A stretch of 64,000 nucleotides of DNA from Aliarcobacter lanthieri (GCF_013201625.1 NZ_CP053839.1:1860001-1924000), one strand, 5' to 3'. Positions 34,537 through 54,488 are shown, numbered from the stretch's first letter. Translations and numbers: made by a program. The notes: generated by a model from the letters alone, not told the origin.

Positions 34537-36633
34537 TTAAAACTTAACTCTAACTCCAGCAAAATAATATGTTCCTTCATTTGCACCTAAAATATCATCA
34601 ACTTTTTCATTAAAAATATTATTAACTCCACCATAAATATTAAAATTTTTATTAATATTATAATCCATACTTAAATCAACTAAAGTTTGGTCATTAGTTT
34701 TTTTATAAGTTGTACTTGTACCAATAGTTTCTGTATAGTCCTGTTTTCCAATATATCTTAAAGATGGTGTAATATTCATATCTTTAATTGGTTGATAAGA
34801 TAAACTAAGCATTACTACACTATTAGGATTAAAATCTAAATCTTTTTTAGTAGTTTTATCTTCTGTATCTAAAAATGTATAATTAAAAGTTGTTGATAAA
34901 TTACTCAAAATATCATAAGATAAATTTAACTCTAAGCCTTTTGTTTCAGCTTTATCAATATTTACAAAAGTATTTACTCCATTTGTTTTCTTTTCTGAAA
35001 TTCTATCATTGATTTTATTTAAAAATAATGCAACATCATAAGAAAAATCAGCATTTCTTCCACCCAATCCTATTTCATAAGTATTTGTAAACTCTGGTTT
35101 TAAATCATATCCCATAACCAAAGCTCCTCTATTTGGACCATTTGGAGTATTCTTATTGATATATAATTCCCTTAAATCAGGTGCTCTATATCCTTGTGCA
35201 AATAAGATTCTTGTATTTAGTAAATTTGAAAATTTATTAGTAAAACCTACTTTAAATGTAGCTTTACTATCAGCATTTGAAATATCATCATATCTAGCTC
35301 CAATAATTGCACTTAAACTATCTGTTATTTGCCATTCATCTTGTAAATATACAGACTTATTATCTACATTTTTTTTATCAAATCCATTTCCCTCACTAAA
35401 AACAGTAGCTTCTCTTTTTTCTTCTCTATACTCTGTTCCAGCAACAAAGAGATGATTCTCATTTAAAGCATAAGTTAGCATAGCTTCATAACTATTCACA
35501 TCTACGTCTGCATCCATTCCATTACTTGCCGAATCATTCTCTGATGTATATCCCATCTCCTTATAGTAAATAGCTGTTGTTATATTTCTTTTTTTATATT
35601 TTGATTTATATGCTTTTAATTTTAAAGATAAATCTTGAGTTATAGCTGTATCAAAATCCAATCCTAAATCAAGTCTTTTATTTTTATCATTTGAGTTTAC
35701 AGGTATATTAAATATCGGTATTGAGTTTCCATTTGGTAATTTTGCAGGATGAAAGAAACCAATATAAGAACCATCTCTATCTTCTTTAAAATAATTAAAA
35801 TCAAATCCTACTTTAGTATTAGAAGTAAAATCATAATCAAATCTTCCACCAACAGTTGATATTTCACTATCTTCTCTATATGTTACATTTTGAACATATG
35901 TATCACTTAATTGTTTTAAACTTGGAGGAACGCCATTTGGTGGCATACCAGTTGTACCACTAGGTTTTAATTTATTTGGACCAACACCTACATTTGCAAC
36001 TTCTTTTTGTGTATATGGAGTTGTATTTGTCTGATTTGCATAAAGAGAATATCCAAATTTATCTTTTTTACCTAAAACAGAAAATGAAGCATTTTTATTT
36101 TTAGCATCACCATCTTTATTTTGTCCATATCGTACATTTAAATCTATTTGTGGAGTATCTGTTGGCTTTTTAGTAATTATATTTATAACTCCACCAGTTG
36201 CATCTGCACCATAAAGTGAGGACATAGGACCTTTTACAATTTCTATTCTTTCAATTGTACTAGCAGGAATTCTATCTAAATCATAAGGATTTTTTACTTC
36301 CCCTGCTAATCTTCTACCATCTAATAAAAATAAAGTCCCATTTGCACTCATTCCACGAATAGAGATTGATGATTTTGATTTTGAACTAGCACTGGGGAAT
36401 GTCCCATATTGGACATTTAATCCAGCTGTTTTATTTATAATGTCTTTTAGTGATTCTGCTCCCATTTTCTCAATTTCTTCTTGAGATACAACTATAACAG
36501 AAGCACTAACTCCATCTATATTTTTTTGTGTTTTTGTTGCTGTTGTAACCAAAACCTCATCTAGTTTTGTTTCAGCAAAAACATTTGTTACCAAGCCCAT
36601 AGCAACAACACTCGATAAAACTATCTTATTCAT
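34537..36633 (-). CDS. TonB-dependent outer-membrane receptor (CirA/FepA-like)
   Basis: A 698-residue outer-membrane gated channel. It has a Sec signal peptide (residues 1-20, cut after VFA), a TonB-box-like DEVLVTT (about 25-31), the plug domain (SASVIVVSQEEIEKMGAESLKDII... ISIRGMSANGTLFLLDGRRL... RIEIVKGPMSSLYGADATGGVINIITKK) and a 22-strand barrel ending in 'YYFAGVRVKF' with terminal Phe. The plug is most like CirA/catecholate receptors. An operator-like repeat shared with the ABC operon upstream lies before its promoter, so it is probably the outer-membrane part of the same uptake route. The ligand is unknown. Confidence 0.9.
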   Translation of the reverse strand: MNKIVLSSVVAMGLVTNVFAETKLDEVLVTTATKTQKNIDGVSASVIVVSQEEIEKMGAESLKDIINKTAGLNVQYGTFPSASSKSKSSISIRGMSANGTLFLLDGRRLAGEVKNPYDLDRIPASTIERIEIVKGPMSSLYGADATGGVINIITKKPTDTPQIDLNVRYGQNKDGDAKNKNASFSVLGKKDKFGYSLYANQTNTTPYTQKEVANVGVGPNKLKPSGTTGMPPNGVPPSLKQLSDTYVQNVTYREDSEISTVGGRFDYDFTSNTKVGFDFNYFKEDRDGSYIGFFHPAKLPNGNSIPIFNIPVNSNDKNKRLDLGLDFDTAITQDLSLKLKAYKSKYKKRNITTAIYYKEMGYTSENDSASNGMDADVDVNSYEAMLTYALNENHLFVAGTEYREEKREATVFSEGNGFDKKNVDNKSVYLQDEWQITDSLSAIIGARYDDISNADSKATFKVGFTNKFSNLLNTRILFAQGYRAPDLRELYINKNTPNGPNRGALVMGYDLKPEFTNTYEIGLGGRNADFSYDVALFLNKINDRISEKKTNGVNTFVNIDKAETKGLELNLSYDILSNLSTTFNYTFLDTEDKTTKKDLDFNPNSVVMLSLSYQPIKDMNITPSLRYIGKQDYTETIGTSTTYKKTNDQTLVDLSMDYNINKNFNIYGGVNNIFNEKVDDILGANEGTYYFAGVRVKF

Positions 36634-36664
36634 TCTTATTCCTTTTAATATATTAAGAATGAAT

Positions 36665-36670
36665 ATTATA
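36665..36670 (-). promoter_or_regulatory. -10 box of the TonB receptor gene
   Basis: TATAAT on the minus strand, about 32 bases before the ATG at 36633, in the 86-bp gap after the binding-protein gene. The inverted repeat at 36692-36707 lies 21 bases upstream, overlapping where a -35 would be. Confidence 0.5.
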
Positions 36671-36691
36671 ATATAAAAATAAATAATTTCT

Positions 36692-36707
36692 ATTGACTAA
36701 AATCAAT
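36692..36707 (-). promoter_or_regulatory. Operator-like inverted repeat, copy 1
   Basis: ATTGACTAAAATCAAT: arms ATTGA/TCAAT around a 6-base spacer. The copy at 40481-40496 in front of the ABC operon agrees at TTGAC-(T/C)-AA-(A/T)-ATCAA, 12 of 14 positions. Both lie about 20 bases upstream of a -10 box. The binding protein is unknown; the adjacent OmpR-type regulator is a candidate. Confidence 0.5.
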
Positions 36708-36719
36708 AAATCTTATGAT

Positions 36720-37691
36720 TTATTTATAATATAAACTTTTATTTGGAATTTCTCCACCAATTAGTTTTGGATCATTATCTTTTAAAACTTCAAAGAAAAA
36801 TTCTAACTCTTTTTGTGAATCAATTGCCATTTTATTATCAAAAACTATATGTTCTATTGAATCAGCTAAACCTTGCTCTTCTAGCATTGGCAAAGATTTA
36901 ACTACCAATTTACTGGCATCTTCATTATTCGCTTTATACCAATCTAAAGCTTTATCATATTCAAATAAAAATCTATTTATTAACTCTTTTTTATCATCAC
37001 TTTTACCAATAACAGCAATTCCTGCTTGTGGAATTTTTGCTTCAGTTTGAAATAACCTTCCCCATTCATCTTGTAAACTTATACTTCTATATAAATCAGG
37101 AGCAATAACTTTCATAGGAAAAGAACCTGTTTTTCGCAAAGCAATAGAAACAGCTGGTTCAGCTAAAAGAGCATGATCTACTCTTCTTAAAATTAACATT
37201 TGCATAGCATCTATTGGAGTTGCTACATATTGTATATCAAAATCTTTTTTTATATCAAGTCCAGCTTTTTTTATAACAGCTTGAAAAACAATATCTGGCA
37301 TATCGGACCTAAAAGGAACAACTATTTTTTTACCTTTAAAATCTTCAATAGTTTTTAGACTACTATCTCTACTTACCATCTGTAAAATTCCCCAAACAGA
37401 CACATTTAAAAGTTTTAAATCAACTCCTTTATTGTGTAAGTTTGCTGCAACATTTGTAGGAAGTGCTATAAAATCAACATCACCTTTTAGAATCAATGCT
37501 CTTAATTCATCTGGATTATTCCAAAGTCTAAACTCTATTTTTGTATTTAAATCTTTTAAAACATCATTTTCTATCATATAAAAAAGTGGATGAGAAACAC
37601 TTGCTATTGGTCCAGCAACAACAATCTTTTGTTCATCTTTTGCCCATAATATATTTGACAAAAGTACAAATACTAATAAAAAAAACTTCAT
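36720..37691 (-). CDS. NitT/TauT-type ABC transporter, substrate-binding protein
   Basis: A 323-residue periplasmic binding protein. It has a signal peptide (about 1-17, MKFFLLVFVLLSNILWA), no lipobox Cys, and an NMT1/SsuA-like fold (KIVVAGPIASVSHPLFYMIEND... ALILKGDVDFIALPTNVAANLHNKG... TIEDFKGKKIVVPFRSDMPDIVFQAVIKKAGL... LLAEPAVSIALRK). The family includes proteins for sulfonates, nitrate, bicarbonate and thiamine precursors; the ligand cannot be named here. Last gene of permease-ATPase-NnrS-binding protein, 24 bases after nnrS. Link to a TonB receptor suggests a ligand too large or scarce for porins. Confidence 0.85.
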   Translation of the reverse strand: MKFFLLVFVLLSNILWAKDEQKIVVAGPIASVSHPLFYMIENDVLKDLNTKIEFRLWNNPDELRALILKGDVDFIALPTNVAANLHNKGVDLKLLNVSVWGILQMVSRDSSLKTIEDFKGKKIVVPFRSDMPDIVFQAVIKKAGLDIKKDFDIQYVATPIDAMQMLILRRVDHALLAEPAVSIALRKTGSFPMKVIAPDLYRSISLQDEWGRLFQTEAKIPQAGIAVIGKSDDKKELINRFLFEYDKALDWYKANNEDASKLVVKSLPMLEEQGLADSIEHIVFDNKMAIDSQKELEFFFEVLKDNDPKLIGGEIPNKSLYYK

Positions 37692-37715
37692 AAAAACTCC
37701 TTTTTTTAATTAAAT

Positions 37716-38921
37716 TTAACCTTTTATTCCATCTGCTCTAGCACTTAATAAAAATGGAAAAAATATTTTCATATATATGATAAATGGTATAGCCCAAAGA
37801 ATAGAAGATATAATATAAGCCAATATCATATATTCATAATAATAAGGAATAAATGCTCTTATAAATGTAGCAATAATTATCAAGATAAGCCCAAGAGTCA
37901 AAGCCAAGTTTGTAAATATTGTTCTACCTGTATGAATCGTAGAAACTATTATCATCACAACATAAAATACCATTCCAAAAGTTCCAGTTGTTAAAAAATG
38001 TCTAAAATGATTTAAAACATTTAGTTCAAACAAGTAATTAAAGCCTAAAAATAAAAACCCTATAGCAGTCATCATAATAGTTGAAACTAAATATAAAACA
38101 AATGGCTTAATCAAGATATTGTTATCTTTTAATATAAAGTCATTTAATAAAGCTAAAATAGAAGCAAAACAAGCAAAACAAATATAAGCTAAAGAAGAAT
38201 TATTCGGATAAAAAAACTCAACAAAACTATATAAAAGTATACAAAATATCGCTAAGTTATATCGAAAAGATTTTGCTAAAAATATCTCATCTATTTGTTG
38301 TTTTTCCAACAGTTCATTTATAGACTCCATACTTATTCGTCGTAAAGCCAACAATATCAAAACTAAAAAAAGACCTAAAGATAGAAGTAAAATTTTATAT
38401 GAACTAATATTTACAATTCCAGCAACACTTAAAAAATAAACTATTTGAACGATAACTATTGAAGCCATAGAAAAGACTAAAGATATATGTTTTTTATTTG
38501 GATCTTTAAATGCTGGAATAGTAGCAAGATATGAGATATAAACTAATAATGAAATATTTAAAAATCCCACAATATAAACTGTTACATAATCCATAAACCA
38601 AAATCCAACTCGTCCCAAAATCCATAATGCAACAATATAGGCTAATTGTCTTCCAACTATTGGCACAACTCCACTAAATAATTCTGGTAATCCAGTTAAA
38701 AAGAATGCTACTATCATAGCACTTCCTACACCAAATATCATCTCATAAATATGCCATTCTAAAGGATTACTAATTGGTAAACTTATATATCCAGAAAAAA
38801 CAAAAGACCATAAAATAATAGAAAGTACAATATATGGCGCAAGAAGTAAAAAAATTGGACGAAAACCATAAGCTAAATATATTGGGAAATTGCCTTTAGG
38901 ATAAATTTCATAGTGATTCAT
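37716..38921 (-). CDS. nnrS: NnrS family membrane protein
   Basis: A 401-residue integral membrane protein with about 12 hydrophobic segments. The start 'GNFPIYLAYGFRPIFLLLAPYIVLSI' and 'LEWHIYEMIFGVGSAMIVAFFLTGLPE' match the NnrS family, heme- and copper-containing proteins linked to nitrosative stress and denitrification. The His in LEWHIYEM and in NHFRHFLTTG are conserved candidates for metal or heme binding. It overlaps the ATPase gene by 4 bases, so it is translated together with an ABC transporter, which is unusual: NnrS is normally near nitric-oxide or nitrite genes. Confidence 0.85.
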   Translation of the reverse strand: MNHYEIYPKGNFPIYLAYGFRPIFLLLAPYIVLSIILWSFVFSGYISLPISNPLEWHIYEMIFGVGSAMIVAFFLTGLPELFSGVVPIVGRQLAYIVALWILGRVGFWFMDYVTVYIVGFLNISLLVYISYLATIPAFKDPNKKHISLVFSMASIVIVQIVYFLSVAGIVNISSYKILLLSLGLFLVLILLALRRISMESINELLEKQQIDEIFLAKSFRYNLAIFCILLYSFVEFFYPNNSSLAYICFACFASILALLNDFILKDNNILIKPFVLYLVSTIMMTAIGFLFLGFNYLFELNVLNHFRHFLTTGTFGMVFYVVMIIVSTIHTGRTIFTNLALTLGLILIIIATFIRAFIPYYYEYMILAYIISSILWAIPFIIYMKIFFPFLLSARADGIKG

Positions 38922-39658
38922 CTTAACTCCAATTCAAAACTATCAATTATTGTTTTATCTTTTAAAAACTTTGCTGTTTCATTGTAAACAAACTCATCAT
39001 CTCTTTTCTCTCTTGGCATTTCAATATTAAAACTCTTAGCTATATGACCAATTGGCTCTGCTTTTAAGACTATTATCTCATCACTTAATTTTATAGCTTC
39101 CATCAAGTCATGAGTTATGAATAACACACTCAAGTTTTCTTTATTTATAGTTTCAATTAAAATATTTTGAAGCTCTTTTTTTAATCCAATATCTAGTGCA
39201 GAAAATGGTTCATCCAAGAATAATAAACTAGGGTTCACAACTAAAGCTCGTGCAAAAGAGACTCTTTGTTTCATCCCTCCACTTAAATCTTTTGGAAATT
39301 TTATAAAATCATCAATTTCTAAGCCAAACTTTAAAGCTATATCTTGAGCTTTTTTTATAGCAATATCTTTTTTCTCTTTTTTTGCTAATAATCCCAAAGC
39401 AATATTATCTATTACATTCTTCCAAGGTAATAATCTAGGTTCTTGAAAAGCAAAAGCAGAGCTTTTAAAACTATTTTTTATCTCTCCATCCTCAACTCTT
39501 AAAAGCTTTGAGCAAAGATGTAGAAGTGTAGTTTTACCACCACCACTTGGTCCAACAATAGATATAACTTTACCTTTTTCCAAAGTAAAATTGATATCTT
39601 CTAAAATCTCTTTAAATCCAAAAGAGAAATACAAATTTTTTACAACTAATCTCTCCAT
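38918..39658 (-). CDS. NitT/TauT-type ABC transporter, ATP-binding protein
   Basis: The 246-residue ATPase has Walker A 'GPSGGGKTTLLHLCSKLL' (about 36-53), Q-loop 'AFAFQEPRLLPWKNVIDNI', signature 'LSGGMKQRVSFARALV', Walker B 'LLFLDEPFSALD', and switch His in 'FITHDLMEAI'. The W-K-N-V after the Q-loop is typical for the SsuB/TauB group. It overlaps both the permease (13 bases) and nnrS (4 bases). It powers uptake through the permease encoded just upstream. Confidence 0.93.
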   Translation of the reverse strand: MERLVVKNLYFSFGFKEILEDINFTLEKGKVISIVGPSGGGKTTLLHLCSKLLRVEDGEIKNSFKSSAFAFQEPRLLPWKNVIDNIALGLLAKKEKKDIAIKKAQDIALKFGLEIDDFIKFPKDLSGGMKQRVSFARALVVNPSLLFLDEPFSALDIGLKKELQNILIETINKENLSVLFITHDLMEAIKLSDEIIVLKAEPIGHIAKSFNIEMPREKRDDEFVYNETAKFLKDKTIIDSFELELR

Positions 39659-40428
39659 GATTCAAGTTCCCTTTTTATTGGTTCAAATATTAAGTACTCT
39701 ATTAAAAGTAAACTTGCTATCATAATAGTTACAAGTGCTAAAGCAGTTGGTGTATCAAGCTGACTTCTTGCTATTGCTAAACTTGAACCTAATCCATCAC
39801 TAGAAGATAAAAGTTCAGCCATAACAACTATTTTCCATGACATTCCAAGTGCAGATATATAAGCAGGGAAAATATATGAAAAAATATGTGGTAAATATAA
39901 ATCAAAAAGTTTCATAGAAAAAGGTAGATGAAAACTATCAACCATCTGTTTTAAATCACCTTCAATAGTTCTTGTTCCTTGTAATGCTCCTACAAAAACA
40001 ATAGGAAATGATGCTATAAATACCGTAAAAATAACTGTCATATCACTCATACCAAACCAAATCATTGCTAAAACGATCCAAGCAATAGGTGGCATTCCAA
40101 ACAAAATTGTTACTATTGGACGACTCATAATAGAAGCTGTTATAAAAAGACCAGCAAATAAACCTAAAATAGAACCGACTAAAATAGCTAAACCAAATCC
40201 AATCATTGCTCTTTTTATTGTAATAAAAATATTTTCTACCATTTCAGGATTATGTAAAATTTCATTTAAAGCTATAAAAGTATCTTTTGGACTTGGTAAA
40301 ATCAAATCTCCATAAATTTGATGTCCAAAATCCCAAAGAGCTAAAAATAAGAATATTGAAGCAATAGAACCCCAACCACTCCAAAGATAAGTTGGAAAAT
40401 CTTTTATAATTTTTATAAAAAGTTTCAT
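39646..40428 (-). CDS. NitT/TauT-type ABC transporter, permease
   Basis: A 260-residue inner-membrane permease with about six segments and the EAA loop (GTRTIEGDLKQMVDSFHLPFSMKLFDLYLPHIFSYIFPAYISALGMSWKIVVMAEL), the pattern of SsuC/TauC/NrtB. It forms a homodimer channel. First gene of the transporter operon, start at 40428, with the operator-like repeat 40481-40496 and a probable -10 at 40457-40462 upstream. Confidence 0.92.
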   Translation of the reverse strand: MKLFIKIIKDFPTYLWSGWGSIASIFLFLALWDFGHQIYGDLILPSPKDTFIALNEILHNPEMVENIFITIKRAMIGFGLAILVGSILGLFAGLFITASIMSRPIVTILFGMPPIAWIVLAMIWFGMSDMTVIFTVFIASFPIVFVGALQGTRTIEGDLKQMVDSFHLPFSMKLFDLYLPHIFSYIFPAYISALGMSWKIVVMAELLSSSDGLGSSLAIARSQLDTPTALALVTIMIASLLLIEYLIFEPIKRELESWRD

Positions 40429-40456
40429 CTTAAATCCATTTTAAAATATTTTGTAT

Positions 40457-40462
40457 TGTATA
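40457..40462 (-). promoter_or_regulatory. Probable -10 box of the ABC/NnrS operon
   Basis: TATACA on the minus strand, 28 bases before the permease start and 18 bases downstream of the inverted repeat. The spacing is close to that seen in front of the TonB receptor, which argues for a common promoter design. Confidence 0.45.
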
Positions 40463-40480
40463 ATAAATATATTAATTATC

Positions 40481-40496
40481 ATTGACCAATATCAAG
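40481..40496 (-). promoter_or_regulatory. Operator-like inverted repeat, copy 2
   Basis: ATTGACCAATATCAAG: arms TTGA/TCAA around a 6-base spacer. It matches the copy at 36692-36707. It lies directly after the histidine-kinase stop (40499), in front of the ABC/NnrS operon. Confidence 0.5.
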
Positions 40497-40498
40497 TT

Positions 40499-42202
40499 CT
40501 ATACTACAATTTCAAATTTTGCTCCATCTTTAGTATTATAAACTGTAAATTTTCCTTTAAAATGTTTTTCAATAATCATCTTAGACATATAAAGCCCTAT
40601 TCCACTACCCTTTTGTTTTGTTGTAAAGTATGGGTCAAATATCAAATCTTTTTTATCTTCTTCTATACCTCCACCATTATCAATAACTGATACAATAGAG
40701 ATATCATCTTTTACATCAAGAATTACTTTTATTTTTGCATCTGCTATATTTTTTTCTATTAACACATCTTTTGCATTTGTTAAAAGATTTAATATAACTT
40801 GTGAATATTCATTTTCATAAGAATTTAGCTCTTTATCATTTATTATTTCAAAATCTAAAATTATTTTTTTCTCTTCTAAAATAGCTTGCATAATATCAAT
40901 AGATTTTTGTATAGCAGTACTTAAGTAAAACAGCTCTTTTTGTTTATTTGGTTTATAAAAATCTCTAAAATTCTCAATAGTTTGTGACATAAAATCTATT
41001 TGAGAATTTGATTCTTCTAATTTATTCTTAATATATTCTATATCTATATTCTTATCTTCTAAAACTAATTGTAAATTCATATTTACAAATCCCAAATGTG
41101 TTAAAGGTTGTCTCCATTGATGTGCAATATTATTTATCATCTCCCCCATAGAAGCTAGTTTACTTTGATGAATTAGAAGTTTTTCTTTTTCATTTTTTTC
41201 TTTAACTATTCTTTTTAGCATAAGTCCTAATGCCAGACTAAAAATCAATGATTCTAAAGGAGCACCAATATGTATTACATATATTCCACTAATAGGTATT
41301 TCTGTATTATTCCCAAAATATATACAAATACAAACAAAGAACCAACCAATAGTATAAATAATAGCTTCTTTATTACCTTTTAATATAGCAATAATTCCAA
41401 CTATAGTTGGAACTAAAAATGATATGTAAATAGATAAATTCATATATAAAATAGGCTTTTTATATACCAAAATGACTATTAAATCTAAAATATTTATAGC
41501 TATATAAAAAATTAAAAATTTATCTACAATTGGTAATTTTTCTTTAGTATTTAAAATAGCTTTAGCAAATAAAAGTGTAAATAAAAAACTTAATGATAAA
41601 AATATATATCTCAAAGTATTATATGGTTCATCTTCATATGCTTGATAAGAAAAATATAAATATATTATTAGTGAAAGTAAAACAAAAAATTGCATTAAAG
41701 AATAATATAAAAAGAAATTTACTCTTGTAGAAAAATAGATAATTAAATAGTATAAAAATGCACAAAATATTATCCCATAAGCAAATCCATATAAAATACC
41801 TTCATATGGTAATAAATACTTATACTCAAATTTAGATATATATTTACCTCTAAATTCTGCTATTTTTGGCTCATCATAAATATATTTAAATAAAATCTCT
41901 TTTTTTTGATTTTTATCCAATTTAACAAATATATAACTATTTATTATTTCATATTCAACATTTGTATAAATTAAGCTATCTCTATCTGAAACGATTTGTA
42001 AATAATATTCACTATCTGCTAATTTATCTAAATCCAATTCAAATTTAATAGTAAATTCATCTGTAACTAAATTTTTATAATCTGCCTCTTTAATATATCT
42101 AAAATCTATATTATTTAAAGAGATATAAACATTCATAAACCATTTCGAATTGTAACTATAAAGATTTACAACTATTAAAATTAAAAGTGCTATTTTTTTC
42201 AT
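40499..42202 (-). CDS. Sensor histidine kinase with 7TM sensor region
   Basis: A 567-residue kinase. It has a signal peptide (about 1-16), a periplasmic 7TMR-DISM extracellular-like domain (about 18-125), seven or so membrane helices (about 135-330; GILYGFAYGIIFCAFLYYLII onward), a dimerisation helix with the phospho-acceptor His361 in 'MGEMINNIAHQWRQPLTHLGF', N-box 'QVILNLLTNAKDVL', G1 'DNGGGI', F-box 'IFDPYFTTK' and G2 'GSGIGLYMSKMIIEKHF'. All kinase boxes are intact. The frame is open to a TTG at 42229, but ATG 42202 begins the signal peptide. It has no ribosome site: TATAAT lies 6 bases before it, so the mRNA is probably leaderless. Its partner is the divergent regulator gene. Confidence 0.9.
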   Translation of the reverse strand: MKKIALLILIVVNLYSYNSKWFMNVYISLNNIDFRYIKEADYKNLVTDEFTIKFELDLDKLADSEYYLQIVSDRDSLIYTNVEYEIINSYIFVKLDKNQKKEILFKYIYDEPKIAEFRGKYISKFEYKYLLPYEGILYGFAYGIIFCAFLYYLIIYFSTRVNFFLYYSLMQFFVLLSLIIYLYFSYQAYEDEPYNTLRYIFLSLSFLFTLLFAKAILNTKEKLPIVDKFLIFYIAINILDLIVILVYKKPILYMNLSIYISFLVPTIVGIIAILKGNKEAIIYTIGWFFVCICIYFGNNTEIPISGIYVIHIGAPLESLIFSLALGLMLKRIVKEKNEKEKLLIHQSKLASMGEMINNIAHQWRQPLTHLGFVNMNLQLVLEDKNIDIEYIKNKLEESNSQIDFMSQTIENFRDFYKPNKQKELFYLSTAIQKSIDIMQAILEEKKIILDFEIINDKELNSYENEYSQVILNLLTNAKDVLIEKNIADAKIKVILDVKDDISIVSVIDNGGGIEEDKKDLIFDPYFTTKQKGSGIGLYMSKMIIEKHFKGKFTVYNTKDGAKFEIVV

Positions 42203-42208
42203 TATAAA

Positions 42209-42260
42209 ATTATATCCAAACAATACCAATTCTTAAAATTTATCTTTTTGTATGTATAAT
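42209..42260. promoter_or_regulatory. Symmetrical divergent promoters of the two-component pair
   Basis: TATAAT on the minus strand at 42209-42214 is followed by 6 bases and the kinase ATG (42202). TATAAT on the plus strand at 42255-42260 is followed by 6 bases and the regulator ATG (42267). Both arrangements are mirror images about 42234.5. With initiation 7 bases past the -10, transcription would begin at the A of each ATG. No Shine-Dalgarno sequence can exist in such transcripts. Confidence 0.65.
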
Positions 42261-42266
42261 TTCTTT

Positions 42267-42950
42267 ATGAGTATAAATGAATTTAAAAATATAAAAATTT
42301 TATTTGTTGAAGATGAAAAAAATATTAGAGAAAATGCTATATCTTATCTAAAAAAATTATTTACTGAAGTATATGAAGCAAAAGATGTTTTTGAAGCTTT
42401 TGAAATTATAGAGAATAAAAAACCTCACATAATTATAACTGATATAAATATGCCAAAAATAAATGGCTTAGAAATGATAAGAAAAATTAGACAAAAAGAT
42501 ACAAATATTAAAATAATTATACTAAGTGCATATACAAATACAGAGTATCTTCTTGAAGCAGTAGAATTAGGGCTTGAAAAATATTTAGTAAAACCTATCA
42601 GACATGATACTTTATTTCCAATTTTAAATAATTGTGTTCAAAAAATATCAAACAAAAATATAAATATAAAATATTTTTCAAAGAATTGTTATTTTGATAC
42701 TCTAAAAAAGACTTTATACAATGATAATGAAATTATCAAATTATCAAATAAGGAATTAGATTTCTTAACTCTACTTTGTGAACATATCAATAGCTTTGTA
42801 TCTTATGAAATTATTCAAGCTATCGTATGGAATGACTCTTTTATGAGTGATGATGCACTAAGAACAGTTGTTAGAAAATTAAGAAAACATCTTCCAGAAA
42901 ATTGTCTAGAAAATTTTTCAAAAATTGGATACAAGATAAATTCTATATAA
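42267..42950 (+). CDS. Response regulator, OmpR/PhoB type
   Basis: A 227-residue regulator: receiver domain (FVEDEKNIRENAI, phospho-acceptor Asp59 in IIITDINMPKING, Ser/Thr in IILSAYTN, Lys in KYLVKPI) and a winged-helix DNA-binding domain (about 140-227; 'LSNKELDFLTLLCEHINSFVSYEIIQAIVWND', 'DDALRTVVRKLRKHLP', 'IGYKI'). An in-frame ATG at 42252 would add five residues but lies inside the promoter; the ATG at 42267 is preferred. It is divergent from the kinase gene and is the best candidate to act on the nearby transport operons. Confidence 0.9.
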   Translation: MSINEFKNIKILFVEDEKNIRENAISYLKKLFTEVYEAKDVFEAFEIIENKKPHIIITDINMPKINGLEMIRKIRQKDTNIKIIILSAYTNTEYLLEAVELGLEKYLVKPIRHDTLFPILNNCVQKISNKNINIKYFSKNCYFDTLKKTLYNDNEIIKLSNKELDFLTLLCEHINSFVSYEIIQAIVWNDSFMSDDALRTVVRKLRKHLPENCLENFSKIGYKINSI

Positions 42951-43058: not shown

Positions 43059-45176
43059 ATGAAAATAAAAATGGCACTTTCTGTTGCTACAATGATTACT
43101 ATGGGAAATTTGCTAAGTGCAAATGAAACAACAGTACTAGAAGAAATAAAAGTAAATGAAACAAAAGCAAGTTCTCAAACACTTCAAAATGGACAAATCT
43201 CAAGACAAAATAGTTTAGGTATCCTTGGAAGCAAGGATTTTATGGATATTCCATTTAACACAGTAAGTTACACAAGTGAATATATAGAAGATGAACAAGC
43301 AAAATATTTATCTGATGTTATTGCGAAAACAGATCCATCAATTTACAATCCTGGTAGAATTGGTGCGATAGGAGATGGTTATAGTATTAGAGGATTTTCT
43401 AATAATACTCAAGATGTTTTAGTAAATGGATTATATGGAATGACACCATATTATAGAATGAGTCCAGAATTTATAGAAAAAGTTGATGTTTTAAAAGGAC
43501 CTAGTGCTTTACTAAATGGTATGAGTCCAGGAGGAAGTGTAGGTGGAGCTGTAAGTATTATCACAAAAAAAGCTAAAGATACTCCAACAAGAAGTATCAC
43601 AGCAACTTATGATTCAGATTCACTTTGGGGAACTCATCTTGATTTAGGGCAAAGATTTGGCGAAAAAAATCAGTTTGGTGTTAGATTTAATGGTGCATAC
43701 AGAAAGGGTGATACAGCAGTTGATAATCAAGAAGCTGAAAGTAGAATAGCCCATTTAGCATTTGATTATAAAGTCGATAGAGGGCAAGTATCTGTTGAGT
43801 ATTTATACTCATATGACCATATAGATGGACTTAATAGAGGGATTGGTGTTGCTCCAGGATTAGCTATACCAACTCCTCCTAAAAATACTACTTTATTTGC
43901 TCCAAAAGATACTTTTACTACAACAGAAGATCATATCTTTATGCTAACTGGAGATTATGATATTACTGATAATATCTTTGTATATGGAAAATATGGACAT
44001 AGTAAAACAGATTTTGATGCTCTAGCAAGTAGTACTTACCAAGTATTTAATACTCAAGGAGATTATAGAAATGATTTTGCTCATCAAAGAAATAAACAAG
44101 ATAAAGATTCAGCTGATATAGGTATTCGATTTAGTTTTGATACTTTTGGTATAAAACATGAACTAACAACAAATGCAACATATTATCATCATAACAATAA
44201 ATTTGGATTTAAACAAAATATGTTAGGGAATAATCCTTGGATTACAAATATCTATAAACCAAATTGGAATGGTTTGCATTTAGATAAAAGCTATAGCAAT
44301 GCAAGTCTTCCAAAAACAGCTGAAGTTGAACTAAGTAGTTATGGTTTTGCAGATAGTATCAGTATGTTTGATGATAAGTTAAATATTATCTTAGGATTAA
44401 GAGAGCAAAATGTTGTACAAGAAAGTTTCAATGCTACAACAGGACAAAGAACTTCAAAATATGATGAGAGTAAACTCACTCCTGCTGTTGCAGTTTCTTA
44501 TAAATTTACAGATTCAATAATGGCTTATGCAAACTATATAGAAGGATTAAGCCAAGGACCTACTGCCCCTGCAACAGTTCAAAATGCAGGAGAGATGTTT
44601 GCTCCATATCAGACTAAACAGTATGAAACTGGTATAAAAATGGACTTTGAACATTTTACAAATACTCTAAGTATTTTCCAAATAGAAAAACCTAGTGGTA
44701 TTACAGACCTTGTTACAAATATCTATAGTGTAGATGGAGAACAAAGAAATAGAGGTATTGAATATAGTTTCTTTGGAGATATCTTTACAGATTTAAGATT
44801 TATGGGTGGAGTTTCTTATATAGAAGCTAAAAATACTAAAACACAAGGTGGTGTAAATGAAGGGAAATATGCAACTGCTACTCCAAAATATCAGGGAAAA
44901 TTGGGCTTAGAGTATGATATAACAAATAATCTTAGTGTAAATGCAAATGCTTCAGCTATGAGTAAACAATATGTAAATGCTGATAATTCACTTTGGGTTT
45001 CTGGAAGAACTATATATGATATAGGAGCAAAATATAAAACAAAAATTGGCTCTTTTCCTACAACTTTTAGAGCAGATATTCATAATGTAATGGATAAAGA
45101 TTATTGGGCTGGAGGTCTAGCCAGTGGTTTAGGTGCGCCAAGAACAGTTATGTTATCTGCAACACTTAAATTTTAA
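43059..45176 (+). CDS. TonB-dependent siderophore receptor
   Basis: A 705-residue outer-membrane receptor. Signal peptide at 1-22 (MKIKMALSVATMITMGNLLSA), a TonB-box-like 'LEEIKVNE', plug domain with 'DGYSIRGFSNNTQDVLVNGLYG', 'IEKVDVLKGPSALLNGMSPGGSVGGAVSIITKKA', and a barrel ending 'PRTVMLSATLKF' with terminal Phe. The plug and end are of the FhuA/FhuE ferric-siderophore group. Its signal peptide is close to those at 61016 and 63309, so the three are probably paralogues. First gene of an operon with a PepSY protein. Confidence 0.9.
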   Translation: MKIKMALSVATMITMGNLLSANETTVLEEIKVNETKASSQTLQNGQISRQNSLGILGSKDFMDIPFNTVSYTSEYIEDEQAKYLSDVIAKTDPSIYNPGRIGAIGDGYSIRGFSNNTQDVLVNGLYGMTPYYRMSPEFIEKVDVLKGPSALLNGMSPGGSVGGAVSIITKKAKDTPTRSITATYDSDSLWGTHLDLGQRFGEKNQFGVRFNGAYRKGDTAVDNQEAESRIAHLAFDYKVDRGQVSVEYLYSYDHIDGLNRGIGVAPGLAIPTPPKNTTLFAPKDTFTTTEDHIFMLTGDYDITDNIFVYGKYGHSKTDFDALASSTYQVFNTQGDYRNDFAHQRNKQDKDSADIGIRFSFDTFGIKHELTTNATYYHHNNKFGFKQNMLGNNPWITNIYKPNWNGLHLDKSYSNASLPKTAEVELSSYGFADSISMFDDKLNIILGLREQNVVQESFNATTGQRTSKYDESKLTPAVAVSYKFTDSIMAYANYIEGLSQGPTAPATVQNAGEMFAPYQTKQYETGIKMDFEHFTNTLSIFQIEKPSGITDLVTNIYSVDGEQRNRGIEYSFFGDIFTDLRFMGGVSYIEAKNTKTQGGVNEGKYATATPKYQGKLGLEYDITNNLSVNANASAMSKQYVNADNSLWVSGRTIYDIGAKYKTKIGSFPTTFRADIHNVMDKDYWAGGLASGLGAPRTVMLSATLKF

Positions 45177-45190
45177 TATAAATTTACAAA

Positions 45191-45220
45191 AATTAAATAC
45201 TCTTTTTTGAGTATTTAATT
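45191..45220 (+). terminator. Hairpin after the TonB receptor gene
   Basis: AATTAAATACTC (45191-45202) pairs perfectly with GAGTATTTAATT (45209-45220) around a T6 loop, then TCTATTT. It lies between the receptor and the PepSY gene, so it may attenuate the downstream genes relative to the receptor. Confidence 0.6.
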
Positions 45221-45253
45221 TCTATTTAAAGGAAAAAAGGAATAAAAATAGAT

Positions 45254-46843
45254 ATGAATATAGAACAATCATGTAAACATGAAGATGAAAAACTCTTTAA
45301 ACAAAGGTTGCAACGAGTACACCAATCAGTGGGTATTAGTTTCTCACTTCTTATGTATGTAGCAATATTTTTTGGAATATTTGCTATTTTACTTCCATTT
45401 ATACAAAATTGGGAGAAACCATCACGACATTACAAAATGCCAAATATAACACAAATAGATTATAACTCTTTAATAGAACCCATCTTAGCAGATCCAAACT
45501 ATCCAAAAATAAATCCTATTACTATAACCTTACCTGGAAATATGTTAGACCCATCTTTGAAAATATCAACAGATTTTGTAGAAACAATTATTATGAATCC
45601 AAACACAAAAGAGAGATTCATAGATAATAAAGAAGTTTCAAATCTAGCAAGTTTTTTAAATCAAATGCATTATGGAAGACCTTTTAAAGATTTTGGAGTT
45701 ATTGTATTTGGGATAATGGCTGTTGGCGTTATGTTTTTAGTTATAGGAGGAGTTTATTTGATACTAAAAATAAAATATAAAAATAGTGATAAATCTCCTA
45801 CAAGTAAATTTTCAAAATGGCATAGAAAGATATTTATTTGGACTTTTGCTCCATTTATAATTATCACTTTAACTGGTGCTATGTTTAATCTAGGATTTAA
45901 AGGTGATGCAGTTATGTCCTATATAGCTTCAAAAGGTGAAGCAACTTCACATACAGTATTGGCTGCACCATATCTTTTTCCTAAAGTTCAAAGAATTGAT
46001 TTAAAAAATGATAGTGTAAAAATGCTTCCTGTTAGTGAACTTATCTCAAAAGCAAAAGAGATAATGCCTAAAGTTGATTGGCAAAGAATTAGAATTGTAA
46101 ATTATGGTGATAGTAGTGCTATATTTAAACTTGAAGGTTATAATCCGTATATGCCATTTTTAAATGGTATTTTAAATAAGCCAAGTGTAACTTTAAGTGG
46201 TGTTGATGGTAAGTTAGTAGATAAACAAGATGTTTTAGATAGACATTGGAGTGCAATTTTTACAGATATTATGCTGTTTATGCATTTTCTATTTGGAGTA
46301 GATACATTTACAAGATTTTTTATAGCAACTTTGATGTTGTTTTCTACATTTGCATTAGGGTTTGGAGTATTACTATATTTAGAGAAAAAATCAAGAAAAT
46401 TTGGGGATAATATTCCAATATATCAAGGATTTGGAAAGCTCTCACTTGCAGTTATGATAGGAGTTATTCCAGCAACTGGATTGTTGTTTGTTTTACAATG
46501 GTTATTACCTTTTGATATGGAAAATAGAGTATTGATTCAAAAAGGGTTGTTTGCAGTTGCTTGGGTAGCAACTTTAACTTGGAGTTTTTATAGACTTAAT
46601 TCTTATAAAGCAGCTAAAGAGTTTTTATATCTTGGAGGGATATTATTTATACTTAGTCCAATAATACATTTTATAAATAGTGGATTTAGTCCAATTAGGC
46701 TTTGGAATGAAGAAGTTTATACAGTACTAAGTGTTGATATAGGATTGTTTATATTTGGATTGATACTTTTAGTAGTAGCTTATAAACTTCCAGTAAATAG
46801 AGAAAAAATTCAAGAATTTTGGACTTCAAGAGGTGTAAAATGA
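45254..46843 (+). CDS. PepSY-associated membrane protein, probable siderophore-iron reductase
   Basis: A 529-residue inner-membrane protein: helix at about 32-52, a large periplasmic PepSY region, further helices near 157-177, 195-215, and five in the last 200 residues. 'SKWHRKIFIWTFAPFIIITLTGAMF', 'DRHWSAIFTDIMLFMHFLFGVDTFTRFFIA' carry the conserved His of the PepSY_TM family, thought to hold heme. Relatives (PiuB, FoxB, FsrB) lie next to siderophore receptors and help release iron by reduction. It follows the receptor gene. The ribosome site is weak. Confidence 0.82.
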   Translation: MNIEQSCKHEDEKLFKQRLQRVHQSVGISFSLLMYVAIFFGIFAILLPFIQNWEKPSRHYKMPNITQIDYNSLIEPILADPNYPKINPITITLPGNMLDPSLKISTDFVETIIMNPNTKERFIDNKEVSNLASFLNQMHYGRPFKDFGVIVFGIMAVGVMFLVIGGVYLILKIKYKNSDKSPTSKFSKWHRKIFIWTFAPFIIITLTGAMFNLGFKGDAVMSYIASKGEATSHTVLAAPYLFPKVQRIDLKNDSVKMLPVSELISKAKEIMPKVDWQRIRIVNYGDSSAIFKLEGYNPYMPFLNGILNKPSVTLSGVDGKLVDKQDVLDRHWSAIFTDIMLFMHFLFGVDTFTRFFIATLMLFSTFALGFGVLLYLEKKSRKFGDNIPIYQGFGKLSLAVMIGVIPATGLLFVLQWLLPFDMENRVLIQKGLFAVAWVATLTWSFYRLNSYKAAKEFLYLGGILFILSPIIHFINSGFSPIRLWNEEVYTVLSVDIGLFIFGLILLVVAYKLPVNREKIQEFWTSRGVK

Positions 46844-47145
46844 GAGAATATATAAATAGCCTTAAAATTCCTGAAAATAGTGGTAAAAAAATAGGATTGT
46901 TTAGAACTATTTGTTCTATTGTTGGTGGGCTTGTTGTTGCATATTTAGGTATGACTCTTTTAATATTTATTATTCCTGGTTCTGCTGGGGAGTCAATAAT
47001 AGTTCCATTGTTATTTAATACTTTTGCTTGGGCTAGTGTTGCACTATGGATAAGCTTGTCTAAAACTAAATATGTAGCACTTCAAAGATGTGTTGTTCCA
47101 ACTTTAATATTTGGAATAGCTTTAATAATACTTTATAATATTTGA
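46840..47145 (+). CDS. Small membrane protein, DUF3649-like
   Basis: A 101-residue protein with about three membrane helices (RTICSIVGGLVVAYLGMTLLIFIIP, IIVPLLFNTFAWASVALWISL, VPTLIFGIALIILYNI). Its ATG overlaps the PepSY stop (ATGA) with AAGAGG upstream; a start 21 bases earlier is less likely. Short membrane proteins of the DUF3649/DUF3325 type occur with PepSY reductases in iron operons; the match is by size, helix number and place only. Confidence 0.65.
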   Translation: MREYINSLKIPENSGKKIGLFRTICSIVGGLVVAYLGMTLLIFIIPGSAGESIIVPLLFNTFAWASVALWISLSKTKYVALQRCVVPTLIFGIALIILYNI

Positions 47146-47156
47146 GGATAAATAAA

Positions 47157-47639
47157 ATGATAAAAAAGATATTTGTACTTTTAACTTTAACATTAAGCTT
47201 GTGTGCGCATGAATTGTTATTGTTTGTAGAAGATAATAAAGATAATACAATAACAGTTGCTGGAGAGTTTGATACAGGAGATGATGCAGCAGGAGCAATG
47301 GTGAGAATAGAATCTTTGGTTTCAGGAGATGTATTGTTTCAACAAAGATTGCCAAAAGAGAGTGAAATTACAATTGATATTCCAAAAGAGCCATACCAAG
47401 TTGTACTTGATGGAGGTGAAGGACATACTTTAGTAAAAGAGGGTATTGCTCCACTTGAAGGATATAGTGAAGAGTTAAAAACAAAGAGTAAACAAGTAAC
47501 AGTTCCACAAAATGTATCTCATGAATGGGATAGTGTAACAATAATGTTCTTTACAATATGTATAATATTATTTGGATTAACTATATATTTTAGTAATAGA
47601 AATACAAATAGAATATTACAACAATTAAAAGAGAGTTAA
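47157..47639 (+). CDS. Exported protein with C-terminal anchor, unknown
   Basis: A 160-residue protein: signal peptide at about 1-16 ending CA-HE (MIKKIFVLLTLTLSLCAHEL), a beta-rich periplasmic part of about 100 residues (ITVAGEFDTGDDAAGAMVRIESLVSG...), and a C-terminal membrane helix (about 127-148, VTIMFFTICIILFGLTIYF). After signal removal the mature N-terminus begins His-Glu, which can bind metal; the layout resembles CbiL/NikL-type nickel-cobalt accessory proteins. ATG 47157 has GAGGA upstream and starts 12 bases after the previous stop. It is the last gene of the receptor-PepSY operon. Confidence 0.7.
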   Translation: MIKKIFVLLTLTLSLCAHELLLFVEDNKDNTITVAGEFDTGDDAAGAMVRIESLVSGDVLFQQRLPKESEITIDIPKEPYQVVLDGGEGHTLVKEGIAPLEGYSEELKTKSKQVTVPQNVSHEWDSVTIMFFTICIILFGLTIYFSNRNTNRILQQLKES

Positions 47640-47770: not shown

Positions 47771-48065
47771 TATTTTATCACTAATTAATAACTCAATGTA
47801 AATAAATAGTATGTATGATAAAAGAATATATAATGGGATAAAGTAGATGTATATAAAATATATAGATAATAAAATAAAATCTGTAGACAGTAATAGGATA
47901 GATAATAAAATAAAAAATAGATTTAAGAATAAGAAAAGCAGAGATATTATTACGAGGACATCTAATTAGTTGTTAGATTAATAGTAGGAAAAGGAATAAT
48001 TAATTTGTATAAATAGATATGATATAAAAGCATATATAAGGACAAAGGGTGATTGAATAAATTGT
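47771..48065. other. AT-rich gap between the structured element and the rrn terminator
   Basis: About 300 bases of very AT-rich sequence without a credible gene. It holds an 18-base direct repeat, ATAGATAATAAAATAAAA, at 47862-47879 and 47898-47915. I see no other organised feature. Confidence 0.5.
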
Positions 48066-48120
48066 ATAAAAAGGGGATACTTTCCCTAAAACACAAGATA
48101 AAGTAGCTTAGGGAAGGTAT
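48066..48120 (-). terminator. Terminator of the rrn operon
   Basis: ATACTTTCCCTAA (48077-48089) pairs with TTAGGGAAGGTAT (48108-48120) with one G-U, around an 18-base loop. On the minus strand it is followed by CCCCTTTTTATAC. It lies 15 bases after the 5S end. Confidence 0.75.
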
Positions 48121-48134
48121 TAAAGACTCAAAGA

Positions 48135-48249
48135 GTTAGCGATGACCTACGTTTCCACCGGGGGACCCAGCAGTATTATCGGCGATGAAGTGCTTGACTA
48201 CCAGGTTCGGAATGGGGCTGGGTATTTCCACTTCTCTGTAACCACTAAC
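48135..48249 (-). rRNA. rrf: 5S ribosomal RNA
   Basis: About 115 bases. The minus strand begins GTTAGTGGTTACAGAG and ends GTCATCGCTAAC; the ends pair to close helix I. It contains 'CCCATTCCGAACCTGG' and 'CGCCGATAATACTGC', typical 5S cores. Ends are set by helix I and may be off by a few bases. Confidence 0.92.
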
Positions 48250-48300
48250 AAAGTTGAGTATTAAAAGAATCATAGAGATAATCTCTTAATACTCAACTTT
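48250..48300 (-). repeat. Inverted repeat between 23S and 5S (processing stem)
   Basis: Arms 48250-48264 and 48286-48300 match perfectly over 15 bases (AAAGTTGAGTATTAA), with a small GAGAT/ATCTC stem inside. This hairpin directly precedes 5S in the transcript and is a likely RNase III-type processing site. Confidence 0.6.
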
Positions 48301-48324
48301 AACAAAAGAGTTAAAGGAATAAAG

Positions 48325-48412
48325 ATAATGTTAAAGTCTTAAAAGTAAATTTTCAAAAAAAACCTACACAAATATAAAGTAAAGATATACTTAATAAGAT
48401 AGTAAACCAAAG
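48325..48412 (-). repeat. 3' arm of the 23S processing stalk
   Basis: Two stretches after 23S are complementary to the spacer before it. 48391-48412 (TTAATAAGATAGTAAACCAA at its start) pairs with 51380-51400, next to the mature ends. 48325-48341 (ATAATGTTAAAGTCTT) pairs with 51544-51560. In the precursor they bring both ends of 23S together for RNase III cutting. Confidence 0.65.
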
Positions 48413-48417
48413 AAATA

Positions 48418-51330
<2,913 letters not shown>

Positions 51331-51679
51331 TTGCCTGATAAATATATCGCTATATTTATCAATTTGTTTTGATAATATTCTTTGGCTACTATCTTATTAA
51401 ATATATTCTATTTAATAATTTAGTTGTGTTCTATCTATAGTTATATAATAAATTAAATCTATTCTAATTTATCACAAATTATTGATATGAAATTTTTTTT
51501 ATTTAAAATTAAATATTACTATTTAATCTTACGAAAAAATTTTAAAGACTTTAACATTATATTTTTAAATATCGTACTATTTTAATAACTATTGTTATCT
51601 TTTTAGTGTTCTTTAGGATAAATCCTAATATAAATCTTATCTGCTATAAAACTTATATTAGAATTTCTTTAAATATATA
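51331..51679 (-). other. Spacer between tRNA-Ala and 23S
   Basis: 349 bases, very AT-rich, no gene. It holds the 5' arms of the 23S processing stalk (51380-51400 and 51544-51560) and a small hairpin TTAGGAT-AA-ATCCTAA at about 51612-51627. No other tRNA is present. Confidence 0.7.
51380..51560 (-). repeat. 5' arm of the 23S processing stalk
   Basis: 51380-51400 (CTTTGGCTACTATCTTATTA at its start) and 51544-51560 (AAGACTTTAACATTAT) are complementary to 48391-48412 and 48325-48341 on the other side of 23S. Confidence 0.65.
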
Positions 51680-51755
51680 TGGTGGAGAATAGCGGGATCG
51701 AACCGCTGACCTCCTGCGTGCAAAGCAGGCGCTCTCCCAGCTGAGCTAATTCCCC
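51680..51755 (-). tRNA. tRNA-Ala (TGC)
   Basis: 76 bases including encoded CCA. The minus strand begins GGGGAATTAGCTCAGC, anticodon loop CTTTGCACG (anticodon TGC), T-loop GGTTCGATCCC. In the 16S-23S spacer after tRNA-Ile, the usual bacterial order. Confidence 0.97.
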
Positions 51756-51774
51756 AACAAAGATTATCTTATTA

Positions 51775-51851
51775 TGGTGGGCCTATCAGGACTTGAACCT
51801 GAGACCTCACGATTATCAGTCGAGCGCTCTAGCCAGCTGAGCTATAGGCCC
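51775..51851 (-). tRNA. tRNA-Ile (GAT)
   Basis: 77 bases including encoded CCA. The minus strand begins GGGCCTATAGCTCAGCTGG, anticodon loop CTGATAATC (anticodon GAT), T-loop GGTTCAAGTCC. Confidence 0.97.
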
Positions 51852-51875
51852 ATTTACCTATATATTTATTCAAAT

Positions 51876-51903
51876 AATCTTTATAAACCGAATATATATT
51901 GTT
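51876..51903 (-). repeat. 3' arm of the 16S processing stalk
   Basis: 28 bases between 16S and tRNA-Ile that are perfectly complementary to 53701-53729 in the leader, apart from one bulged base. The stalk closes the 16S precursor. Confidence 0.8.
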
Positions 51904-51922
51904 AATTGTTTTTCATTTTTCT

Positions 51923-51950
51923 ATGTATTAAGAAACAAATCTTAATACAT
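51923..51950 (-). repeat. Hairpin just after 16S
   Basis: ATGTATTAAGA (51923-51933) pairs perfectly with TCTTAATACAT (51940-51950), 6-base loop, eight bases past the 16S 3' end. Probably helps 16S 3'-end maturation. Confidence 0.55.
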
Positions 51951-51957
51951 TTCTCTG

Positions 51958-53475
<1,518 letters not shown>

Positions 53476-53700
53476 TTATCTATATCTAGTCCATATATCT
53501 TACTATATAATCTAAACATATCTTTATAGTGTTTGAAACTGACATATTCTATAATTACTCTTAAAATTATATATCTATCTCTAAACATACTCTCTTATTC
53601 GTTAGTTACAAAATTATCACTCAAATTATAGACAAGTTCTTAATCTATACATCATCTCTGACATACAAACTCTCCACTTGTACATTTTTTTTATTTTTTT

Positions 53701-53729
53701 AACAATCATATATTCGGTTTATAAAGATT
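53701..53729 (-). repeat. 5' arm of the 16S processing stalk
   Basis: Contains TATTCGGTTTATAAAGATT and is complementary to 51876-51903 over 28 pairs with one bulge. Together they form the double-stranded RNase III substrate around pre-16S. Confidence 0.8.
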
Positions 53730-53751
53730 ACTTCTCTATCACCGTCTTAAA

Positions 53752-53762
53752 CTTTAAAGAAC
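53752..53762 (-). promoter_or_regulatory. boxA antitermination site
   Basis: The minus strand reads GTTCTTTAAAG, close to the rrn boxA core (GCTCTTTAACA). It lies about 25-35 bases after the predicted start, the usual place for NusB-S10 loading. Confidence 0.65.
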
Positions 53763-53792
53763 TTTTAACCCTTCTGGTCAAATTGGACGGGA

Positions 53793-53821
53793 ATTATAAT
53801 AGCTTTTTTTTCCTTTGTCAA
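53793..53821 (-). promoter_or_regulatory. Consensus rrn promoter
   Basis: The minus strand has TTGACA (53821-53816), a 17-base spacer and TATAAT (53798-53793), a perfect match to the sigma-70 consensus, which is rare in this phylum, whose promoters usually lack a -35. It is followed by TCCCGTCC, a GC-rich discriminator of the kind that makes promoters sensitive to ppGpp. Transcription should start near 53786. Confidence 0.92.
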
Positions 53822-53861
53822 GAGTATTGCGCTTAATCTAAGCTTAAATTTTGGAAATTAT

Positions 53862-54488
53862 CTATTTCTTAGATAAAAGCTCGATAAATCCAGTATCTTG
53901 ATGTATACTAATTTCTCTAAATTCATTTGAATTTGATATAAACTTTATTTTACAAGGCTTTTTTATTTCATATTCATAACTTCCTGATACTAAATTAGAT
54001 AATTTTGAATAAACTTTTCCATCTTCACCAAAAGATATTTGTCCTAGAGACGTTGTATTATTACAACTTATATCTACATCTTTTATATCATAGTTTTTTA
54101 ATAATACAAACTTACTATTTTCATTATTTAATCTACAATAATTTGAACTATAAATATATTTATTTGTAAGAGGATCTTTTAATGTCTCTTTTTGATTAGG
54201 ATGCCCTGTGTCATTATTCTCACTATAGATAGAAAAATATATCCCTCCACCTTCACTTTCTCTACACCTAAAAAATTTAATAGTCCATCGTTTTTTATGC
54301 CATAATTGTTCTTCTGAATAAACATCATCACTCAAAGCTTTAAATCTTGTAAAATTTAAATAAATTAAAATTCTATTGCTTACTTCATCTAATTTGCTTA
54401 TATTTTTTTTAGGTATAAAAATAGAATAGATTATTCCTAGTAGAATTATTACAGTTACAAATTCTATTAAGATAAATGATTTTTTCAT
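53862..54488 (-). CDS. Prepilin/pseudopilin-like protein
   Basis: A 208-residue protein with a prepilin-type N-terminus: a short basic leader (MKKS), then FILIEFVTVIILLGIIYSIF, with Phe at +1 and Glu at +5 of the mature protein as in type IV pilins and type II pseudopilins. The residue before the cut is Ser rather than Gly, so processing may be slower or need an adapted peptidase. The rest is a soluble domain with five cysteines. It overlaps the upstream GT39-like gene by 4 bases. The stop is only 41 bases before the rrn -35. No other pilus gene is near. Confidence 0.7.
   Translation of the reverse strand: MKKSFILIEFVTVIILLGIIYSIFIPKKNISKLDEVSNRILIYLNFTRFKALSDDVYSEEQLWHKKRWTIKFFRCRESEGGGIYFSIYSENNDTGHPNQKETLKDPLTNKYIYSSNYCRLNNENSKFVLLKNYDIKDVDISCNNTTSLGQISFGEDGKVYSKLSNLVSGSYEYEIKKPCKIKFISNSNEFREISIHQDTGFIELLSKK

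Follow-up and report, generated by a model that had tools for sequence, protein, structure and literature searches.

In the pyoverdine system, the FpvA receptor and the FpvCDEF importer are accompanied by FpvG, an inner-membrane heme reductase. NnrS, a membrane protein, has been reported to contain heme and copper. In the paper describing the NnrR, DNR and NsrR regulons nnrS is a hypothetical gene and no importer operon is mentioned (PMC1274295), and in the open-access literature we found no paper on NnrS with a transporter of the type described below, nor on NnrS with Sulfurimonas. We have analysed a stretch of 64,000 nucleotides (the window; NZ_CP053839.1:1860001-1924000) from the 2.28 Mb genome of Aliarcobacter lanthieri, for which the nearest named relative found was Aliarcobacter vitoriensis (binding protein 92% identical). 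Here nnrS is part of an ABC importer operon next to a TonB receptor gene, a setting that is not unusual, yet one whose description we did not find in that literature.

The genes are transcribed from the minus strand in the order permease, ATPase, NnrS, binding protein and TonB receptor. The permease (39646-40428, PF00528) overlaps the ATPase (38918-39658, PF00005) by 13 bp, the ATPase overlaps NnrS (37716-38921) by 4 bp, and a gap of ca. 24 bp leads to a periplasmic substrate-binding protein of the NitT/TauT, SsuA/NMT1 type (36720-37691), with the receptor at 34537-36633. One operon therefore encodes an NMT1/SsuA-fold binding protein together with the permease and ATPase that go with it, the composition of a NitT/TauT (SsuABC-type) importer. 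Among curated families, SaoP came closest to the permease (110 bits vs. a cut-off of 295) and TauB and SaoA to the ATPase, both below cut-off (SaoA, 153 vs. 360). Farther upstream, a 7TMR-DISM histidine kinase (40499-42229, minus strand) precedes the operon by ca. 70 bp, and an OmpR-type response regulator (42252-42950, plus strand) is divergent from it. ORFs and Pfam domains agree with the first-pass annotation on the placement and identity of all these genes, on their overlapping or abutting on one strand and on the position of the kinase and its regulator. After the response regulator, the plus strand at 43059-47639 encodes a second TonB receptor (above cut-off for a siderophore-receptor model), a PepSY-TM protein and a protein with a weak likeness to NikL. 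These genes are probably a separate operon for metal-chelate uptake, lying back to back with the NnrS operon. The GC content rises to 40-45% at 48001-54000, vs. ca. 27% elsewhere, probably because of an rRNA operon.

We surveyed conservation by searching whole genomes and scanning those of 84,980 species. In Campylobacterota, permease, ATPase and NnrS occurred with the binding protein in 39 of 43 fully flanked loci; NnrS was alongside in all 39 permease-bearing ones, and not one of the 43 had a permease without it. The permease-to-ATPase gap was -13 in 70 of 73 Campylobacterota loci and the ATPase-to-NnrS gap -1 or -4 in 67 of 73. Because these gaps are fixed across the phylum the layout is far beyond chance, and the four genes form a conserved operon. 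The translation of NnrS together with a transporter ATPase, which the first-pass annotation had singled out as an unusual setting, is instead a conserved one. The genome-neighbourhood search that it had proposed showed the grouping of NnrS, importer and receptor to be widespread and not confined to this strain, so that conservation bears out the idea that a TonB receptor, an SsuA/NMT1-type ABC importer and NnrS belong to one uptake system. The top NnrS scores in an order-wide search were operon copies, and the second NnrS of the A. lanthieri genome is found between Sel1-repeat and UvrD genes, outside any importer operon. Gene order varies within Campylobacterota, the binding protein following NnrS in Aliarcobacter and standing first elsewhere, and a small membrane protein, weakly HemJ-like (UPF0093, below cut-off), recurs in these loci.

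The window receptor is CirA/FepA/BtuB-like, with plug (PF07715) and barrel (PF00593) domains both above cut-off, and its best PDB match was the colicin I receptor CirA (E 3e-41). Receptors of its family (TBDR1) were found near the operon in 17 of the 43 fully flanked loci, while in many Sulfurimonas and Sulfurovum loci a PF13557 outer-membrane protein was the partner instead of a TonB receptor. Exchange of receptors between loci is probable, since the one in the window is closer to those at operons of distant genera (ca. 50-60% identity) than to that of A. vitoriensis (ca. 45%). In the A. cryaerophilus group (L031, L032, L034, L049), imelysin-like and cytochrome-peroxidase-like genes adjoin the operon and replace the receptor. 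At another locus (L037, 7408-8413), transposase-like ORFs split the binding protein from the receptor, breaking up the cluster.

The operon is also found well beyond this group. Six genomes of other families had binding proteins 31-35% identical, and the distant loci examined were arranged as receptor, binding protein, permease, ATPase and NnrS, with nrfHA flanks in one genus and a Crp/Fnr gene in another. A core of binding protein, permease, ATPase and NnrS is carried on plasmids of Agrobacterium, Rhizobium, Allorhizobium, Azospirillum, Paracoccus, Chelatococcus, Martelella, Cereibacter, Shinella and Bartonella. Its neighbours there often include nap, nor, nnrU, hemerythrin or NsrR-like genes, and a TonB receptor is often present as well (next to the operon or within it in Agrobacterium, Shinella, Cereibacter, Bartonella and Azospirillum, the last having it within; near it in Paracoccus). 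The Agrobacterium copy is followed by napEFDA, those of Allorhizobium and Rhizobium lie between nor/hemerythrin/nnrU and a second nnrS, and an Rrf2-type regulator is near those of Paracoccus and Chelatococcus; pseudoazurin adjoins the Martelella copy, hutW/hutX that of Cereibacter and iron ABC genes that of Bartonella. Paraclostridium, which has no outer membrane, carries the importer without NnrS, near hemerythrin, ferredoxin and hcp. Neisseria gonorrhoeae (L191, NZ_CP119142.1 1335427-1348329) has a homologous locus near dnaK, with genes for receptor, binding protein, permease, ATPase and NnrS in this order. The reading frame of its receptor is interrupted, and a Cad (cadmium resistance) gene separates ATPase from NnrS; TdfF was considered as the identity of this receptor and not established. 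A cluster on a plasmid of Diaphorobacter sp. HDW4A (L179) groups a Crp/Fnr gene, two TonB receptors, the binding protein, a cupin and a cobN-like chelatase, with no permease, ATPase or NnrS in the neighbourhood list.

Between the kinase stop and the permease start, the window carries a composite element (40467-40495, minus strand) in which a Fur-box-like sequence TGATAATTAATATAT (40467-40481) abuts a DNR/NnrR-type palindrome TTGATATTGGTCAA (40482-40495); it matches the composite pattern with 3 mismatches and is followed by a predicted -10 hexamer, TACAAT (40455-40460, minus strand). Fur boxes were scored against TGATAATNATTATCA, requiring at least 12 of 14 positions, with 418 upstream regions of the same loci as controls. 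In Campylobacterota such a box was found in 73% of core-gene upstream regions vs. 17% of controls, and a perfect palindrome TTGAYNNNNRTCAA in 36% vs. 5%, an enrichment that stands after masking of the Fur boxes. Palindrome and Fur box are linked at one spacing, with exactly 14 as the offset in 39 cases (runner-up, 4). Searching 41 related genomes for the composite with up to 3 mismatches gave 11 matches, every one of them at the NnrS–importer operon, and the controls with a composite scoring at least 20 were nearly all the same sites viewed from a divergent neighbour gene. Most composites begin 66-73 nt 5' of the start codon. A TATAAT-like hexamer comes after them, and its spacing would put the palindrome at ca. 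-41.5 and the Fur box at ca. -34 to -20, between -35 and -10. An element of this geometry predicts activation from ca. -41.5 and repression by iron. NssR-type (TTAAC-N4-GTTAA), Zur-like and NsrR-like patterns had little or no enrichment in Campylobacterota, and the Fur box was absent from alphaproteobacterial upstream regions, where the iron regulators differ. An Rfam search of 32-48 kb of the window gave zero matches, so riboswitch control was rejected.

The receptor has a DNR-type site of its own, found by a pattern search of the genome (TTGATTTTAGTCAA, 36693-36706, minus strand), with a predicted -10 TATAAT (36665-36670, minus strand) at a distance similar to that in the operon promoter; because this hexamer is ca. 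30 nt 3' of the site centre, the receptor palindrome would also be at ca. -41.5. Similar sites occur 5' of other TBDR1-family receptors, and in the same genome the palindrome with a -10-like hexamer precedes napA and a hemerythrin/copper-chaperone operon (genes named from sequence). Two Crp/Fnr proteins of this genome have PETFSR and PETLSR recognition helices and are devoid of the FNR cysteine cluster. Palindromes and Cys-less regulators with such features have been described for the DNR/HcpR group (PMC1274295), and a review states that the Arcobacter/Sulfurimonas group does not encode an FNR orthologue (PMC6682613). With TTGAY-N4-RTCAA predicted at ca. -41.5, a Cys-less E--SR regulator in the genome and a predicted Fur box at the promoter, the operon looks like a candidate member of both a DNR/NnrR/HcpR-type and a Fur regulon. 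The metal and nitrogen-oxide theme of the first-pass annotation is to that extent upheld, in part, by predicted sites of the two kinds.

The binding protein could not be placed in a subfamily of known ligand: SsuA_fam scored 53.5 bits vs. a cut-off of 163.5, and no curated family exceeded its cut-off. Its AF2 model (pLDDT 88) matched 3hn0 (Z 31), PqqT (Z 27) and SsuA (Z 26) in fold; PqqT was not matched by sequence profile and is ca. 18% identical, a likeness in fold. PQQ was considered as the ligand on this fold match and not adopted. An aromatic or acidic ligand is plausible, because the invariant residues include H34, W57, W100, R128, D130 and E178; the protein lacks both a conserved Cys and a Met/His-rich motif.

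NnrS itself scored 237 bits with PF05940, vs. a curated cut-off of 28. Its AF2 model (pLDDT 91) has a predicted 12-helix heme-copper-oxidase subunit I fold, aligning with CcoN of the cbb3 oxidase (VIA-align Z 29.9, rmsd 3.4, 375 residues aligned) and with NO reductase (Z 29.5). No sequence relationship to CcoN was detected by hhalign (probability 0.7%), and a PDB sequence search for NnrS found none. The conserved histidines are only those at 3, 57, 145, 305/308 and 330, H57 (helix 2) and H308 (helix 10) being invariant. An oxidase-like CuB site is unlikely, because helices 6 and 7, which would supply its three histidines, have no conserved one (residues 174-237). From their positions in the modelled helices, H57 and H308 may bind heme.

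The conservation of the operon, its association with receptors, the architecture of its promoters and the predicted folds have all come from computation. We consider that the best explanation, with about an even chance of being right (ca. 0.5), is that the operon and its TonB receptor import a metal chelate, most likely one of iron, with high affinity, and are expressed under iron scarcity in the presence of nitrogen-oxide or low-oxygen signals. In such a scheme, in which we infer the class of ligand, the sense of regulation, which activator acts and what NnrS does, the receptor would use TonB energy to bring the chelate through the outer membrane, the NMT1/SsuA-type protein would bind it, or its organic part, in the periplasm, and the permease/ATPase pair would import it. 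NnrS, beside the importer, would serve as its heme redox partner and reduce the chelated metal, or would keep NO off it. A Cys-less Crp/Fnr regulator of DNR/NnrR/HcpR type at ca. -41.5 would switch transcription on, and Fur bound at ca. -34 to -20 would block it. Iron is favoured by the predicted Fur boxes, by the recurrence of ExbB/ExbD/TonB genes near the operon, by Fur-family proteins at 5 of 131 near neighbours (genomes hold ca. 3 copies each), by a protein after NnrS judged FeoB-like from its sequence (L129) and by the iron- and heme-related neighbours in Cereibacter and Bartonella. The nitrogen-oxide or low-oxygen signal is supported by the palindromes at the operon and before napA and the hemerythrin/copper-chaperone operon, by the two Crp/Fnr proteins devoid of FNR cysteines and, in other genomes, by the nap, nor, nnrU, hcp and Rrf2/NsrR-type genes nearby. 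Against a metal chelate, the fold group of the binding protein binds nitrate, sulfonates, thiamin precursors and PQQ, none of the members found being known to bind iron. The PF13557 partners of many Sulfurimonas and Sulfurovum loci and the alphaproteobacterial upstream regions devoid of a Fur box also count against the scheme.

We favour iron over copper, and copper is a live rival. The system might take up a chalkophore-like copper chelate for NosZ, NirK or the cbb3 oxidase, with NnrS handling the copper. The model nearest to the receptors of the distant versions is TIGR01778 TonB-copper (E 4e-55, below cut-off), pseudoazurin stands beside the Martelella copy and a CopD-like protein near one distant copy. 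The gene for the copper enzyme NosZ is present in 21 of 29 operon carriers vs. 47 of 140 other genomes (Fisher p 1.5e-4, phylogeny ignored); however, 8 of the 29 are without it, the window genome among these, and the predicted Fur boxes, the iron-homeostasis neighbours and a binding protein with neither conserved Cys nor Met/His-rich motif make copper rather improbable. We regard as similarly doubtful a system for nitrosative stress, in which an organic protectant or cofactor (a thiol, a quinone or something PQQ-like) would be imported, NnrS would detoxify NO and iron control would be secondary. NnrS does belong to NO regulons (PMC1274295), nor, nnrU, hemerythrin, hcp and Rrf2/NsrR-like genes are among the neighbours, and the binding protein is close in fold to the PQQ-binding PqqT. 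The latter likeness is nearly equalled by SsuA, however, and in Campylobacterota no promoter feature is as regular as the Fur box, while a TonB receptor implies a ligand that is large or scarce.

The first-pass annotation had seen a single uptake-and-sensing unit that included the 7TM histidine kinase and the divergent regulator. The kinase does share the strand of the operon, close upstream, and A. vitoriensis (L044) has preserved this layout, but among the loci examined only this species has the pair beside the operon. There, kinase and regulator are 69-78% identical to those of the window, vs. 92-95% for permease, ATPase and NnrS, and a complete predicted promoter separates the kinase stop from the permease start. 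Because of this restriction to A. vitoriensis, the faster divergence and a promoter downstream of the kinase, we judge the pair to be a neighbour outside the uptake system, and its inclusion to be very improbable; the sensing half of that proposal is not sustained.

Returning to the import of a metal chelate, the wide occurrence of the operon in nitrogen-oxide respirers and the predicted promoter sites of the Arcobacter/Sulfurimonas group suggest that such uptake, most likely of iron, takes place during this respiration. If so, metal supply would be linked to denitrification and nitrosative stress in this group. NnrS is found in many denitrifiers and its job is unsettled; the operon ties it to a specific importer and so gives it a concrete function that can be tested. 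A bolder and more tentative idea, which we think could well be wrong, is that NnrS is the dedicated partner of the importer, with an oxidase fold that has kept a heme site and lost CuB, serving the TonB–ABC system as metal-chelate reductase or NO shield. If true, this would explain the recurrence of NnrS in denitrifiers and define a new and widespread class of uptake system.

In comparison with described systems, the NnrS of the NnrR/DNR/NsrR regulons (PMC1274295) shares PF05940, a Crp/Fnr-type promoter palindrome and the link to denitrification, but here NnrS is translated with an ABC importer and the palindrome joined to a Fur box. The Sao families of the selenium-associated SaoABP system (PMC13188914) are among the closest curated ones for permease and ATPase, but both fall below the cut-offs and SaoB is absent among the matches of the binding protein. 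The sulfonate and taurine importers SsuABC and TauABC are built in the same way from a permease, an ATPase and a binding protein; unlike them, the proteins here score below the curated cut-offs and have a TonB receptor and NnrS attached. PqqT (PDB 9b1u) and PqqU offer a similar binding-protein fold and the use of a TonB receptor, but identity to PqqT is low, the window receptor is weakly PqqU-like (E 1e-17, below cut-off) and NnrS is not known in that system. The pyoverdine system of FpvA, FpvCDEF and FpvG resembles the locus in combining a TonB receptor, a periplasmic binding protein, an ABC importer, a proposed membrane heme redox partner and iron control. It differs in that the binding protein here is of the NMT1/SsuA type, the membrane protein is NnrS, with an oxidase fold, and not a PepSY protein, and a DNR/NnrR-type site stands beside the Fur box.
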